Shown: positions 49,191-58,797 of the stretch, piece after piece
Layout of the letters: every line of letters starts with the position of its first letter
Numbering within the stretch: the stretch's first letter is position 1
From: a bacterium
GTDB taxonomy: Bacteria; Verrucomicrobiota; Verrucomicrobiia; Limisphaerales; UBA11358
Assembly: GCA_021780905.1 (NCBI GenBank)
Contig: JAJXXW010000048.1
Location: 62,001 to 126,000 of the forward strand
Direction: 5' to 3'
DNA length: 64,000 nt
Program-made: the position numbers and the translations under genes
Notes under the pieces: generated by a model
What the model was told of the DNA's origin: nothing
What the model saw: only the letters and a program-made list of their open reading frames with translations
Databases searched by the model: none

Positions 49191-49376
49191 ATGAGCGATA
49201 AACAACTGGTCTTGGATTCGATTGAGCGTTTGCCGGACAACGCCAGCCTGGATGCCATCGCCGAGCGGGTGGAGTTTCTGGCGGCCATCCGCAAAGGACT
49301 CGACCAAATCGAGCGCGGCCAGACGATTCCGCACGACGAAGTCAAACGGCAACTGGCGACATGGCTTTCCAAATAA
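49191..49376 (+). CDS. small antitoxin of a RelE/ParE pair
   Basis: 61 residues: SDKQLVLDSIERLPDNASLD, AIAERVEFLAAIRKGLDQIE and RGQTIPHDEVKRQLATWLSK. A helical protein whose C-terminal PHDEVKRQLATW motif is the usual toxin-binding end in ParD-like/RHH-type antitoxins. It overlaps the toxin gene by 16 bases. No resemblance to the antitoxin at 41252. Confidence 0.75.
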   Translation: MSDKQLVLDSIERLPDNASLDAIAERVEFLAAIRKGLDQIERGQTIPHDEVKRQLATWLSK

Positions 49377-49675
49377 TCTGGTCGGAGCAGGCGCGGGACG
49401 ATTTGCAGTCCATCGTGCTGTTTATCGCCCAGGACAATCCGCCAGTCGCGGAATCTTTCGGCTATCAGCTCATGTCCAAGGTGGACGTGCTGGCGCAGTT
49501 CCCACAGTTCGGCCGGGTCGTGCCGGAAGAAAACGACGAGACGATCCGCGAAATTATTTTTCGCCCTTATCGCATCATTTACAAAGTCCTGGCGGAAAAA
49601 CAAATTGTCGGCATTGCCCGCGTCTGGCATGGCGCACGCGGCGAACCGGAAATCCCGGATCGGTTGAATTTTTAA
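49361..49675 (+). CDS. RelE/ParE-family toxin
   Basis: 104 residues: FQIIWSEQARDDLQSIVLFI, AQDNPPVAESFGYQLMSKVD, LAQFPQFGRVVPEENDETIR, EIIFRPYRIIYKVLAEKQIV and GIARVWHGARGEPEIPDRL. This is a ParE/RelE plasmid-stabilisation type toxin with the basic strand RPYRIIYKV and the terminal VWHGARG seen in the family. Coupled to the antitoxin by overlap. It shares little sequence with the toxin at 41482-41775, so the two cassettes carry different modules. Confidence 0.85.
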   Translation: MAFQIIWSEQARDDLQSIVLFIAQDNPPVAESFGYQLMSKVDVLAQFPQFGRVVPEENDETIREIIFRPYRIIYKVLAEKQIVGIARVWHGARGEPEIPDRLNF

Positions 49676-52778: not shown

Positions 52779-54419
52779 ATGCTTTCATGGCGCATGGTTC
52801 CGTGCGTCATTTTCGAAGACGAGCACCTGCTGGTGGTTCACAAGCCCGCCGGCTGGAACACGCACGCGCCGGCACCGTTCGCGGGCGAGGGCATTTATGA
52901 CTGGCTGAAAAACCGCGAGCCGTGCTGGGCCACGCTCGCCATCATCCACCGGCTCGACAAGGAAACCAGCGGCGTAATGGTTTTTGGCAAGACGCCACTC
53001 GCCAACCAATCGCTCACGGAACAATTCACGGCGCGCCGCGTCCGCAAAAAATATCTTCTGCTCACCGACCGCCCGGTTCCACAAAACGAATTCACCGTGA
53101 AAACCGCGTTGCTCCGCGTTGGCGAAAAATATGCCAGCCGGCCCGGCGGCGAACCGGCGGAAACCCAATTCGTGCCCGCGGCGGACATCAAACTCAAAAC
53201 TAAAAATTCAAAATTGAAAATGGTCTGCGCCGAGCCGCTGACCGGCCGCACGCACCAAATCCGCGTCCATGCGGCGGAAACAGGCTTCCCGATCCTTGGC
53301 GACACGCTTTACGGCGGCACGCCCGCGGCGCGCGTCCATCTGCACGCGGCGGAGATTGAGTTCGCGCATCCGGCGACCGGCCGGCCGGTGCGGTTTGGGG
53401 TGCCGGTGGATTTTGAACTGGAACCGCGCCTTGCCTTGCGCACCGCCGTCATTGATCCGGCAAGCACCAACGCTTTCCGGGTGATTCACGGCGCGAGCGA
53501 CGGCTGGCCGGGCTGGTTCGTGGAAAAGCTCGGCGACTTTCTGCTTTCGCAAGCCGAAGCGCCGCTGGGCATAAAGCAAAATGAAGAATTATCGCGGCTC
53601 GCACAAGTTTTCTCCGCGCGCGGCGCGTATCACAAAACCTTGTCACGCCAGGTTCGCCGCGCCACGACCGCCAACGCCTCACCGCAACTCATTTTTGGCG
53701 AGGCCGCGCCAGAACGGTTTGAGGTTTTGGAGAACGGCATCCGGTTCGAGTTGAGTTTCAACGAAGGTTATTCCGTCGGGCTATTTCTCGACCAGCGCGA
53801 CAACCGCCGGCGCCTGTTGACCGGCCATGTCGCGGCCGACTTTCCGCTTTGCCAATCGGCAATCGGCAATCGGCAATCGGAAGTCTTGAATTGTTTTGCC
53901 TACACCTGCGGCTTTTCCATCTGCGCGGCGAAGGCGGGCGCGCGAACGACGAGCCTGGATCTCTCGAAAAAATATTTGGAATGGGGCCGGCGTAATTTTG
54001 CGCGGAACGGCCTCGACCCGTCGGCGCATGATTTTATCTACGGCGACACCTTCGACTGGCTGCGGCGGCTGGCGAAAAAAGGCCGTGCGTTTGACGTCGT
54101 GGTGCTCGACCCGCCGACGTTTTCGCAATCGAAGGAGCACGGCATTTTCCGGGCGGAAAGCGATTACGGCCGGGTCGTCGCCGCCGCCCTGCCCGTCCTC
54201 AAGCCCGGCGGGGTGTTGCTCGCCGCGACGAACGCGGCCGAATTTTCGCCGGAAGATTTTCTCGCGGACATCGAATCGGCGGCGGGCGACGCGAACCGCA
54301 AAATGGTAAAGTGGCATTATGTCCCGCAGCCGCCGGATTTCCCGATCAGTCGTAACGAGCCGGCCCATTTGAAAACCGTGTGGGTGAAAATGGGCGCGGG
54401 TTTTGACGGCCGGGCTTAG
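52779..54419 (+). CDS. fusion of an RluA-type pseudouridine synthase with an RlmI-like rRNA methyltransferase
   Basis: 546 residues in one frame (an ATG at 52794 is also possible). Residues 1-215: RluA-type synthase with LLVVHKPAGWNTHAP, catalytic IHRLDKETSGVMVFGKT (Asp60), LTGRTHQIRVHAAETGFPIL and GDTLYGG. Residues 225-546: class I methyltransferase of the RlmI/RlmL type with SVGLFLDQRDNRR, LNCFAYTCGFSICAAKAGAR (SAM loop) and VVLDPPTFSQSKEHG. RlmI makes m5C in 23S rRNA; the PUA domain of RlmI seems missing, with the synthase in its place. Two in-frame low-complexity inserts are visible: an A-rich stretch (53190-53222) and four 7-base repeats (53853-53880). Confidence 0.85.
   Translation: MLSWRMVPCVIFEDEHLLVVHKPAGWNTHAPAPFAGEGIYDWLKNREPCWATLAIIHRLDKETSGVMVFGKTPLANQSLTEQFTARRVRKKYLLLTDRPVPQNEFTVKTALLRVGEKYASRPGGEPAETQFVPAADIKLKTKNSKLKMVCAEPLTGRTHQIRVHAAETGFPILGDTLYGGTPAARVHLHAAEIEFAHPATGRPVRFGVPVDFELEPRLALRTAVIDPASTNAFRVIHGASDGWPGWFVEKLGDFLLSQAEAPLGIKQNEELSRLAQVFSARGAYHKTLSRQVRRATTANASPQLIFGEAAPERFEVLENGIRFELSFNEGYSVGLFLDQRDNRRRLLTGHVAADFPLCQSAIGNRQSEVLNCFAYTCGFSICAAKAGARTTSLDLSKKYLEWGRRNFARNGLDPSAHDFIYGDTFDWLRRLAKKGRAFDVVVLDPPTFSQSKEHGIFRAESDYGRVVAAALPVLKPGGVLLAATNAAEFSPEDFLADIESAAGDANRKMVKWHYVPQPPDFPISRNEPAHLKTVWVKMGAGFDGRA
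53853..53880. repeat. four tandem copies of a 7-base unit within the fusion gene
   Basis: CAATCGG repeated four times without change, translated in frame as QSAIGNRQS between the synthase/MT core and the SAM loop. The unit length is not a multiple of three, so loss or gain of a unit would shift the frame. Confidence 0.9.
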
Positions 54420-55524: not shown

Positions 55525-57279
55525 ATGTCATTTAGCCCGGTCAGAAACCTTGTGGCGACGGTCGCGGACGCGTCCCCGGCGCAGTTCGACGACTGGCGCA
55601 AATCGTGGCGCGCAGCGGCGGACGCCGGCTCCGCCGAGCCGCTGCTCACGTTCGTCGCGCGCGAACGCGGCGTGGCCGAGGACGTCTTTGTGCAGAAGCT
55701 GGCCACCGCGCTCGGCTGGCCGTATCTCGAACTCCCGAAGCTCACGATTGAGAACGCGGTGCGCGGCAAACTCTCCACCAAGATCGCTTTCCAGTATTTT
55801 GTGCTGCCGGTCGCCATCCACAACGGCGTCTTGCAGATCGCCGTCAGCGACCCGTTTGACGCGGCGATGATGAACGCCGTCCGGTTCGACGCCAAGATGC
55901 CCGTGAGTTTCGCACTGGCGACGCGGAACGAAATCGAGAAGGCGCTGAAAAAATATTTCGGCGTCGGCGCCGAGACGCTCGACGAAATGGGCGAGGGCGA
56001 ACCGATGGAACTGGAACTGGCCTACGACAAGGAAATCACCGAAGGCGACCAGGAGGCCAGCGTCATCAAGTTCGTGAACCAGATCATCTGGGAAGCGTTC
56101 AAGGATCGCGCGACGGACATTCATTTCGAGCCGCAGGAGGACGAGCTGCGCATCCGCAACCGCGTGGACGGCATCCTGCACCAGATTCCGCTGCCGCCGA
56201 CGTTGAAGCGCTTTCAAGCCGCCATCATTTCGCGCATCAAGGTGATGAGCGGCATGAACATTTCCGAAAAGCGCCTGCCGCAGGACGGCCGCATCAACGT
56301 CCGCATCAAGGGCGAGGAAATTGACATCCGCGTTTCCACCGTGCCGACCGTTTATGGCGAAAGCGTCTCGCTCCGCCTGCTGACGCGCGGGAAAATCTTT
56401 TTGAGTTTGGACAAGCTGGGTTTTTCCAAATTGGAAGAAGATGCGATCCGCGAAATCATCATCAAGCCGCACGGAATTTTCCTCGTCACCGGCCCGACCG
56501 GTTCCGGCAAATCCACGTCGCTCTACGCGTTTCTCTCGGCGATCAACTCGGTGCATAAACGCATCATCACGATTGAGGAACCGGTCGAATACGAACTCAA
56601 GGGCATCAACCAGATCGCCGTGCGCTCGGACATCGGGCTGACGTTCGCGATGGGCTTGCGCCACATTTTGCGCCAGGACCCGAACGTCGTGATGGTCGGC
56701 GAAATCCGCGATTCCGAAACGGCAGACATCGCCATCCGCGCGTCGCTGACCGGCCACCTGGTGTTCTCCACGCTGCACACGAACGACGCGCCGAGCGCGT
56801 TCACGCGCTTGACCGACATGGGCATCGAGCCGTTTTTGATCGCGTCTTCCGTCGAGGCCGTGCAGGCGCAGCGCCTCGTCCGCACGATTTGTTCGCAGTG
56901 CAAGACCGAGCAAACGGTGGATCCCGATTATCTGCGGCGGATCGGTTTTCCCGAGGCGGACATTGGCACGGCGAAATTCTGGCACGGCGCGGGCTGCGAA
57001 AATTGCCGCCAGCAGGGGTATCAAGGGCGCAAGGGCATTTACGAGCTGCTCATCGTCACCGAGGCGCTGCGGCCGCTGATCATGAACCGCGCGCCGGCCA
57101 CCACCATTGCGCAGCGCGCCATCGACGCCGGCATGCGAACCCTGCGCGTGGACGGCTGGAACAAAGTGAAAGCCGGCGTCACCACGATTGAGGAGGTTTT
57201 GCGCGTGACGCAGATGGAAGAACACCGCGAGGCGCTCGCCGCCGGCGACGACAAAACCCAATTCATTTCCCGTTCCTGA
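55525..57279 (+). CDS. gspE: GspE/PilB-type secretion/pilus assembly ATPase
   Basis: 584 residues, normal length. Powers pseudopilus or pilus assembly at the inner membrane. N-terminal MshEN-like domain (LPVAIHNGVLQIAVSDPFDA), N2 domain (FVNQIIWEAFKDRATDIHFE), then the ATPase: GIFLVTGPTGSGKSTSLYAF (Walker A), ITIEEPVEYELKGI (Asp box), PNVVMVGEIRDSETADIAIR (Walker B), TGHLVFSTLHTNDAPSAFTR (His box), and a zinc domain with CSQC and CENC. First of a cluster of four plus-strand genes. Confidence 0.9.
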   Translation: MSFSPVRNLVATVADASPAQFDDWRKSWRAAADAGSAEPLLTFVARERGVAEDVFVQKLATALGWPYLELPKLTIENAVRGKLSTKIAFQYFVLPVAIHNGVLQIAVSDPFDAAMMNAVRFDAKMPVSFALATRNEIEKALKKYFGVGAETLDEMGEGEPMELELAYDKEITEGDQEASVIKFVNQIIWEAFKDRATDIHFEPQEDELRIRNRVDGILHQIPLPPTLKRFQAAIISRIKVMSGMNISEKRLPQDGRINVRIKGEEIDIRVSTVPTVYGESVSLRLLTRGKIFLSLDKLGFSKLEEDAIREIIIKPHGIFLVTGPTGSGKSTSLYAFLSAINSVHKRIITIEEPVEYELKGINQIAVRSDIGLTFAMGLRHILRQDPNVVMVGEIRDSETADIAIRASLTGHLVFSTLHTNDAPSAFTRLTDMGIEPFLIASSVEAVQAQRLVRTICSQCKTEQTVDPDYLRRIGFPEADIGTAKFWHGAGCENCRQQGYQGRKGIYELLIVTEALRPLIMNRAPATTIAQRAIDAGMRTLRVDGWNKVKAGVTTIEEVLRVTQMEEHREALAAGDDKTQFISRS

Positions 57280-57287
57280 ATGCATTT

Positions 57288-57383
57288 CATCCGCCCATAT
57301 ACGATTTGCGATTTACGGTTGACGCGGCGCGGACTGAATTCGCGCGGCATGGGCCCATCGTCCATCGTCCATCATCCATCGTA
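57288..57383. repeat. simple-sequence filler before the GspL/PilM-like gene
   Basis: Contains degenerate repeats: ATACGATTTGCGATTTACG at 57299-57317 and CATCGTCCATCGTCCATCAT (57357 onward). They are non-coding and fill the gap between 57279 and 57391. Confidence 0.6.
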
Positions 57384-57390
57384 AATTCCA

Positions 57391-58797
57391 ATGGCCCGCT
57401 GGAACTCCTGCAACATCCTCCACGTCGCCCCGGACGCGAAACGCGTCTGGCAATTCGACGCGAAGGGCGGCGGCTTCGTGCTGAACCGCGAGCAGCGCGT
57501 GCCGCACACCGAACCGCTGCCGGCCAAGGGCATCGCGAAACAGTGGTCGTCACTCTGGGCGCCGAAACTGAATGTCGCGTGGCTGCCGCCGGAGAGCGTT
57601 TTCCTCCGCGTCATCGAGCTGCCGGCGAGCAATTTCGAGGAGACGCTGGCGATGGTGGATCTGCAGTTGGAAAAACTCTCGCCGCTGCCGGTCGCGCAAA
57701 TCGTCTGGACGATGCACGTGGCCGGCACGCACACCGCCCCAGCCCGGGGCGACGCCGCGCCGGAGAGCTTGCAGACGGTCATCGTGGTCATTGTCGAGCG
57801 CCGCGTGGTGGAGGAATTTCTCGGGCGGCTGGAAAAGGACGGTTTTCTCGCCGACCGTCTGGAGACGCCGCTGCTCGACCAACTGGCCATGATTCCGTCC
57901 GGCGAGGACGGCGTCTGGCTGTTTCCGCTGTCGCTGGCCGGGCAGAATGCGGCGCTGACGGCGTGGCGCACCGGCGGCGTGCTGCGGGGCTTGAATTTCG
58001 TCCTGTTGCCGCCTGCCGGCGACCGAGCGAAGGATTTAAAGGACCAGATCGCCCACCTCGTCTGGGCGGGCGAATTGGAAGGCTGGCTGACGGCACCGCT
58101 GACCTGGCATCTCGTCGCCGATCCGGTGAACGCGGCGGAATGGGAAAATCTGCTGCGCACGGCGCTGGACCAGCCGGTGACGGTTTCCGCGCCGGCCGCA
58201 CCGCTGGAACTGGCGGCCAGCACGGCGCGGCGGGCGGCGGCGGCCGAAAAATCGAATCTGCTGCCGGCGGAATTTGGCGCGCGGTATCATCAACAGTTTG
58301 TGGACCGGCTGTGGTTGCGCGGCCTCGCCTACGTGGGGCTGGCGTATGCGCTGGCGCTGGTGATCTACTTTGGCGCGGTCAGCGTGCTGAATTTTCGGAC
58401 GACCCGCGTCGAGGCGCAGGTCGCGGCCATCAGCAACGATTACACCAACGCGATCCAGTTCAAGGCGCGGCTGGGCGTGCTCCAGGAGCGGCAGCAGTTG
58501 AAATACGCGGCGCTGGACTGCTGGCAACTGGTGGCGCAGCAATTGCCGGCGGGCCTCGCGCTGTCGCGGTTGAGCTTTGCGAACGGCCAAACCCTGACGC
58601 TCGGCGGGCAGGTGGCGGCGGACGACATCACGAAGATTTTTGATTTCAACGACGCGCTGCGCAAGCTGAAGGTCAACGGCCAGCCGCTGTTCAATCCCGC
58701 GAACGGCCAGCAGCTCAATTACCGCACCAGCCCGAACAACCAGGCCACCTGGAGCTTCGGCCTGGAATTACTGCGCACGGAAACGGAGCCGGAATGA
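57391..58797 (+). CDS. GspL/PilM-PilN-like inner-membrane assembly protein
   Basis: 468 residues. Actin-like cytoplasmic half (HVAPDAKRVWQFDAKGGGFV, NVAWLPPESVFLRVIELPAS, FEETLAMVDLQLEKLSPLPV, VVIVERRVVEEFLGRLEKDG) as in GspL and PilM, a transmembrane helix (AYVGLAYALALVIYFGAVSV, about residue 315), and a periplasmic PilN-like part (AISNDYTNAIQFKARLGVLQ, LALSRLSFANGQTLTLGGQV). Thus it combines PilM and PilN functions, as GspL does. It overlaps the next gene by four bases and follows gspE by 111 bp. Confidence 0.75.
   Translation: MARWNSCNILHVAPDAKRVWQFDAKGGGFVLNREQRVPHTEPLPAKGIAKQWSSLWAPKLNVAWLPPESVFLRVIELPASNFEETLAMVDLQLEKLSPLPVAQIVWTMHVAGTHTAPARGDAAPESLQTVIVVIVERRVVEEFLGRLEKDGFLADRLETPLLDQLAMIPSGEDGVWLFPLSLAGQNAALTAWRTGGVLRGLNFVLLPPAGDRAKDLKDQIAHLVWAGELEGWLTAPLTWHLVADPVNAAEWENLLRTALDQPVTVSAPAAPLELAASTARRAAAAEKSNLLPAEFGARYHQQFVDRLWLRGLAYVGLAYALALVIYFGAVSVLNFRTTRVEAQVAAISNDYTNAIQFKARLGVLQERQQLKYAALDCWQLVAQQLPAGLALSRLSFANGQTLTLGGQVAADDITKIFDFNDALRKLKVNGQPLFNPANGQQLNYRTSPNNQATWSFGLELLRTETEPE

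Follow-up and report, generated by a model that had tools for sequence, protein, structure and literature searches.

Related enzymes and the fused gene

Fused rRNA-modification enzymes are already known. RlmKL (YcbY) of E. coli, which makes m2G2445 and m7G2069 in 23S rRNA, carries a C-terminal m7G domain of the PF10672 type, RlmK. PMC11194073 describes it as a fused m7G2069/m2G2445 enzyme and refers to cooperative synthesis and helix unwinding. RlmKL is a precedent for an m7G domain of this superfamily working inside a fused 23S enzyme. The PF10672 fold is also found in RlmQ-like proteins (RlmQ being YwbD of B. subtilis) and in RlmI, RlmO, and Rlm2499. In m5C enzymes, the Cys of motif VI is the C5 nucleophile. 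The pseudouridine synthases (PUS) RluA, RluC, and TruC have a catalytic domain with HRLD and are not fused to a methyltransferase (MTase). Among the open-licence PMC papers listed in our literature searches, none reported a PUS-methyltransferase fusion of this kind.

Such a fusion is encoded in the window, by which we mean the whole 64-kb stretch of DNA analyzed. The following features were located, with residue numbers counted from the first start.

52779 to 54419, + strand: fused gene, a single frame of 546 aa; the stop codon is included in the end coordinate
52794, + strand: alternative ATG start, five codons further in, which would give 541 aa
52794 to 53420, + strand: RluA-type PUS domain, about residues 6-214, with HRLDKETSG and no S4
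52956 to 52958, + strand: codon of the catalytic Asp60, which is Asp in 98/98 fused proteins with a letter there
53424 to 54416, + strand: PF10672 class I SAM MTase domain, about residues 216-546, no PUA found
Residues 444-449, 484-485, and 520-521: MTase motifs DPPTFS, TN, and DF
54231 to 54233, + strand: codon of Asn485; RlmI and RlmO have Cys at that site
53853 to 53880, + strand: four tandem CAATCGG copies, in frame, just before motif I and outside the enzyme core

One gene joins a PUS to an RNA MTase, as the Pfam matches confirm. PF00849 (PseudoU_synth_2) matched residues 16-166 with 91.1 bits against a cut-off of 26.8, and PF10672 (Methyltrans_SAM) matched residues 275-525 with 91.5 bits against a cut-off of 27. 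The first-pass annotation had read the frame as an RluA-type synthase with a catalytic Asp60 fused to a PUA-less MTase of the RlmI superfamily, and both parts of this reading were borne out. No PUA family was detected in the fused protein at E <= 0.001 in the Pfam scan, and four NCBIfam whole-protein models of the RlmI type align only from model position 75-97, that is, behind the PUA region. TIGR00005 aligns from position 75, behind its S4 region, with 161.6 bits against a curated cut-off of 192.7; the S4 part of this model has no counterpart, and no S4 domain was found in the PUS half. The true start of the gene may be 52794, since many relatives start there (several of their matches begin at query residue 5 or 6) and residues 1-3 form the sole run of at least three residues with a pLDDT below 50 in the AlphaFold2 model.

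The fused protein shares DPPTFS, the Asn at the motif-VI site, and DF with RlmK. However, the partner in RlmKL is an N2-G methyltransferase, whereas the partner in the window is a PF00849 synthase, and the two MTase halves are far apart. Elsewhere in the genome, PF01170 gave weak matches only, of at most 31.4 bits (cut-off 22.3). The RlmQ-like protein of P. megaterium (L193) has PUA_3 and no PUS, in contrast to the fused protein, which has no PUA and belongs to a separate clade. RlmI, RlmO, and an Rlm2499-like protein of the same genome (L127) have a PUA region and the Cys and DHP motifs, all of which the fused protein lacks. The fused PUS is similarly distant from RluA, RluC, and TruC. A comparable arrangement of two separate genes occurs in the Peptostreptococcales C. 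difficile and Acetoanaerobium noterae, in which the gene of a PUA-less PF10672 MTase stands immediately before that of an S4-less RluA-type synthase (L191:2788-4325 and L192:2803-4343), in the opposite order to the fusion. This MTase has DPPSYGR and no Asn at the 485 site, and the PUS is on another branch. Two further clostridial loci were found with the DNA of the pair, and the neighbor was absent from both. Since the MTase type and the PUS branch are different and the neighbor is not always present, the pair lends weak support.

Distribution of the fusion

Relatives were searched in 59 genomes, 36 from the same genus (the window's own included) and 23 from the same order. Both halves were found in one ORF in 47 of the 59, each checked on the DNA; in 37 a single match spanned both halves, and in 10 the frame was matched in two pieces. 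Two genomes have the gene cut by contig ends. In one (G041), the frame runs from the PUS into the MTase before the contig end cuts it (L142/L143); in the other (G051), each half ends a separate contig (L139/L140), as would be expected if the gene were cut, although this is no proof. Two other genomes have the MTase only, one of them (G055, as opposed to G036) with a PUS remnant. Neither half was found in eight genomes, four of which have a completeness of at least 90% and four of 69-87%. Of 63 named loci, 54 encode both halves in a single ORF, including one that is broken inside the PUS half (L112). The remaining nine comprise fragments at contig ends (L114, L115, L124), MTases alone (L117-L121), and a paralogue (L125).

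The fusion was also found beyond the order, in families labeled f41 and f112-f115. In a class-wide search of 141 genomes with the PUS half, the best 30 matches were all fused, and 19 of these were genes additional to the earlier searches of relatives. Ten weaker matches, picked for a long open frame, were fused as well. In total, 99 distinct fused genes were collected; two of them are truncated at a contig end, and L112 is broken. On plasmids, 0/175 matching records cover 80% of the query, so no fused protein was found there.

The first-pass annotation had allowed that the fusion might be confined to this sequence through the loss of a stop codon. The broken frame of L112 is the sole observation that would suit such a loss or an assembly artefact. 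Fused ORFs in 47 of 59 relatives, together with the 99 distinct fused genes, rule out an assembly join or a single lost stop codon, to which we give a negligible probability. Three of the fused proteins (L071, L102, and L104), from contigs labeled Methylacidimicrobium fagopyrum and Akkermansia muciniphila, are 64-76% identical to that of the window; these labels look doubtful because of this level of identity.

Structure and predicted chemistry of the methyltransferase half

An AlphaFold2 model of the whole protein was built from a 56-row alignment (55 of 80 candidate relatives plus the window) and reached a pLDDT of 92.9 and a pTM of 0.90. Such a high pTM points to a compact protein of two domains. 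In the model, the PUS passes straight into the MTase at about residue 215, with helix 216-224 as the joint. In a structural search with the MTase half, the top match was 3vse (Z 35.0, 308 aligned, 3.2 A), an RlmQ-like protein, followed by SMU.776 (Z 32.5, 313 aligned, 4.7 A). We take 3vse and its kin (SMU.776, P. megaterium L193, and S. suis L194) to be RlmQ. Other matches were PH1915 (Z 30.4), RlmI (Z 28.5, 319 aligned, 7.1 A), TTHA1280 (Z 27.8), and RlmO (Z 26.1, 298 aligned, 3.7 A). RlmK (Z 26.6) is structurally no closer to the MTase half than RlmI.

The motifs divide the reference proteins into two sets. Cys and DHP are found in E. coli RlmI, RlmO (4dmg), TTHA1280, PH1915, and two proteins of the window's own genome (L127 and L128). 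Asn and DF are found in E. coli RlmK and in the RlmQ-like 3vse, SMU.776, L193, and L194, the RlmQ-like proteins sharing TNA(A/S) with the fused protein. In the fused proteins, the residue at the 485 site is Asn in 97/98 sequences and Ser in one, with one row gapped. D520 is present in 97/97, and position 521 is Phe in 93, Tyr in 3, and Met in 1, with two gaps. Standalone MTases, counted after leaving out rows shorter than 290 aa, have Asn in 36/40; the other four are Cys-bearing paralogues. Among the references, only RlmI, RlmK, and RlmO have a stated activity, taken from the E. coli annotation for RlmI and RlmK and from the PDB title for RlmO (m5C1942); TTHA1280, PH1915, L127, and L128 were classed with RlmI and RlmO by likeness. 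The m7G rule draws on one labeled m7G enzyme, RlmK, together with the assignment of 3vse and its kin to RlmQ.

From these motifs, we predict that the MTase half methylates N7 of guanosine and not C5 of cytosine. The label of an RlmI-like m5C enzyme without PUA, given in the first pass, is not supported, Cys being replaced by Asn and DHP by D-F/Y/M. An m5C activity is a doubtful alternative. PF10672 is common to both kinds of enzyme, the Cys rule was drawn from few labeled references, and the best NCBIfam model for this half is an m5C model, Rlm_2499C5, with 162.5 bits. However, the cut-off of that model is 650, and the three m5C models gave 120.9-162.5 bits against cut-offs of 575-712. Of these models, the RlmI (m5C1962) equivalog scored 120.9 bits against 712; the RlmKL equivalog scored 129.9 bits against 466. 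In addition, the same genome encodes the two Cys-bearing paralogues L127 and L128, which look like m5C enzymes: against the Rlm2499 model (cut-off 650) L127 scored 631.6 bits, and against the 23S C1962 model (cut-off 575) L128 scored 298.7 bits. Neither passes its cut-off, but with them the genome has other candidates for the m5C roles. The best PHROGs match of the MTase half, "DNA methyltransferase," was set aside as a family label.

Fused, RlmQ-like, and Cys-bearing MTases formed three separate clades, the fused and the RlmQ-like enzymes being on branches of their own (99/98 and 100/100), in a tree of 41 rows from which RlmK and RlmO were left out for their long branches. An earlier tree of 61 rows, built from every fourth fused row, every second standalone row, and chosen rows, placed RlmK on a very long branch (end branch 4.05). 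Given the three clades, what we claim for the fused MTase is a likeness of chemistry and not membership in RlmQ. The motifs also call for caution with other PF10672 proteins, whose m5C annotation needs a check of the Cys and DHP motifs.

The synthase half and the possible substrate

Against E. coli references, the PUS half scored 100.7 bits with RluC, 83.9 with RluA, 78.5 with TruC, and 65.4 with RluD. Paralogues from its own genome gave 88.9 bits (L131), 86.5 (L130), 75.5 (L135), 73.2 (L132), and 67.3 (L133). In structural comparisons, RluA (Z 25.8) and RluC (Z 25.1) were tied. The lead of RluC in the sequence scores is too small to fix the PUS target. No Rfam family matched in the 64-kb window, and a search of the bin turned up no 23S gene.

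We favor, with somewhat better than even confidence, a bifunctional RNA-modification enzyme that would make pseudouridine and m7G, most likely in 23S rRNA, with halves that would help to dock each other; both activities, the m7G product, and the rRNA substrate are inferred. The N-terminal half would isomerize uridine to pseudouridine with Asp60 as the catalytic residue, as in other RluA-type synthases. The SAM MTase of the C-terminal half, from the Asn/D-F branch of the RlmI superfamily, would methylate N7 of guanosine, which is the reaction of RlmK and RlmQ. In place of the lost S4 and PUA domains, each half probably assists the other in docking on the RNA. The likeliest target is 23S rRNA close to the peptidyl-transferase center, in the precursor of the large subunit. 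That the two modified sites neighbor each other, as the first reading of the fusion proposed, is a plausible guess.

A bifunctional enzyme acting on tRNA is also conceivable, although we think it improbable. The S4-less RluA relatives RluA and TruC act on tRNA, the PUS half likewise has no S4, and its model scores for TruC (78.2 bits) and RluA (75.5 bits) stand beside 105.0 bits for RluC. The sequence does not fix the substrate, and the tRNA enzymes TYW2 and Trm5 are among the weaker structural matches of the MTase half (Z 18-20). In contrast, all four labeled models that match the MTase half with more than 100 bits are 23S rRNA enzymes.

For the 23S rRNA enzyme that we prefer, a specific pair of sites can be named. 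According to the cited papers and titles in their reference lists, RluC makes pseudouridines 955, 2504, and 2580 (PMC11194073), and RlmQ forms m7G2574, a position in helix 90 (PMC12805891, PMC12672651, PMC12149560, PMC11651297). Since the RluC site 2580 is six positions from 2574, psi2580 plus m7G2574 is an attractive pair and the most specific hypothesis. One enzyme might write both marks on one A-site rRNA segment, with the synthase replacing the PUA of the RlmQ type, after a fusion that happened once in Verrucomicrobiota and was kept across several families. As a whole, this detailed version is a tentative suggestion, which we hold to be rather unlikely. Other candidates are psi2504 or a different site, m7G2069, and targets in tRNA. 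If the proposal of a bifunctional enzyme is true, two unrelated chemistries are linked on one RNA, and the mutual docking of enzymes is suggested as a route to the loss of RNA-binding domains. It would also provide a testable prediction of m7G and pseudouridine for Verrucomicrobiota.

Selection, origin, and losses

Both halves are under purifying selection. Between the window and four relatives, dN/dS was 0.13-0.23 for the PUS and 0.14-0.21 for the MTase, at a dS of 0.58-1.12; further pairs gave 0.13-0.31 among the 10 listed of 14. Over the 99 fused proteins, counting those with a letter at the position, D60 is kept in 98/98, Y92 in 98/98, and R162 in 99/99, and in the MTase half D338-Q-R340 is kept in 99/99, D444-P-P in 98/98, and T447 in 95/98. 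The His before Asp60 is replaced by Gln in 10/98. The protein that has no letter at Asp60 is L112, whose frame is broken in the PUS half.

These data bear on the possibility that one half is active and the other is mainly an RNA clamp. Each half lacks an RNA-binding domain of its own, and the PUS appears to be dispensable, as the MTase stands alone in some loci (L117-L120 and L138) and only a remnant of about 40 residues is left in another (L141). However, nearly all 99 proteins retain the catalytic motifs of the PUS and of the MTase, and the constraint on the halves is similar; we regard a clamp as unlikely, preferring an enzyme in which both halves would be active.

The PUS tree contained 30 fused PUS domains and, for comparison, 11 other members of the RluA family, including five encoded by the window's own genome. 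All 30 fused domains tested formed one branch (support 100/96), which makes a single fusion event likely. The fused MTase halves group with PUA-less standalone enzymes (99/98), and within this group standalone and fused enzymes are intermixed and poorly resolved. The best fit is a single fusion, after which the PUS half was lost more than once. Standalone MTases have 326-330 aa in L117-L120 and L138 and 332 aa in L121. Family f26 and one f31 genome also have the MTase alone, in 27 loci with ORFs of 294-417 aa. In the standalone MTase that was scanned with Pfam (L049), no PUA domain was present. At L141:5124-6425, about 40 residues of the PUS start are recognizable (hmmsearch E 9.8e-6), followed by an intact-looking MTase. 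The PUS half was apparently lost in one clade (L117-L120 and L138), in which the MTase stayed, and eroded in L141. Because of these cases, and because 8 of the 59 genomes have neither half, the coupling of PUS and MTase is not obligatory.

Neighboring genes and sequence features

A conserved operon was considered and rejected since hisI adjoins the fused gene in only 5 of 54 loci (flanks of 3 kb or less); the neighboring genes lend no support to the bifunctional reading. In the same flanks, a Cys-bearing Rlm2499-like gene was found in 3 of 54 loci. A second PF10672-type match, 33-39% identical, lies within 10 kb of the fusion in at least 13 of 59 genomes, with its type checked within fetched loci. 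In two loci (L086:4756-5994 and L223:3331-4569), a PF10672 paralogue of 412 aa, large enough to include a PUA, starts 3 bases past the stop of the fused gene; the one in L086 is Rlm2499-like and Cys-bearing. Elsewhere in the window are a ParE-type toxin gene at 49361-49675 (PF05016, 71.3 bits) and, at 55525-58797, a gene for a GspE/PilB-type ATPase (PF00437), behind which a 468-aa protein with no Pfam match at E <= 0.001 is encoded.

In-frame tandem heptamers of the CAATCGG/AATCGGA type occur in 7 of the 99 fused genes (the window, L002, L067, L087, L088, L099, and L152). In six, the repeats lie before motif I at comparable positions, and in L088 they lie in the PUS half. The threefold heptamer motif is found at only one other place in the window's genome (C77). 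An AT-rich stretch, CAAAACTAAAAATTCAAAATT, lies at 53195-53215 inside the PUS half, near the point where the matches of some relatives break (query 132-140). Similar heptameric stretches, with two mismatches, are present at three other places in the genome, and the reversed control gave one match.
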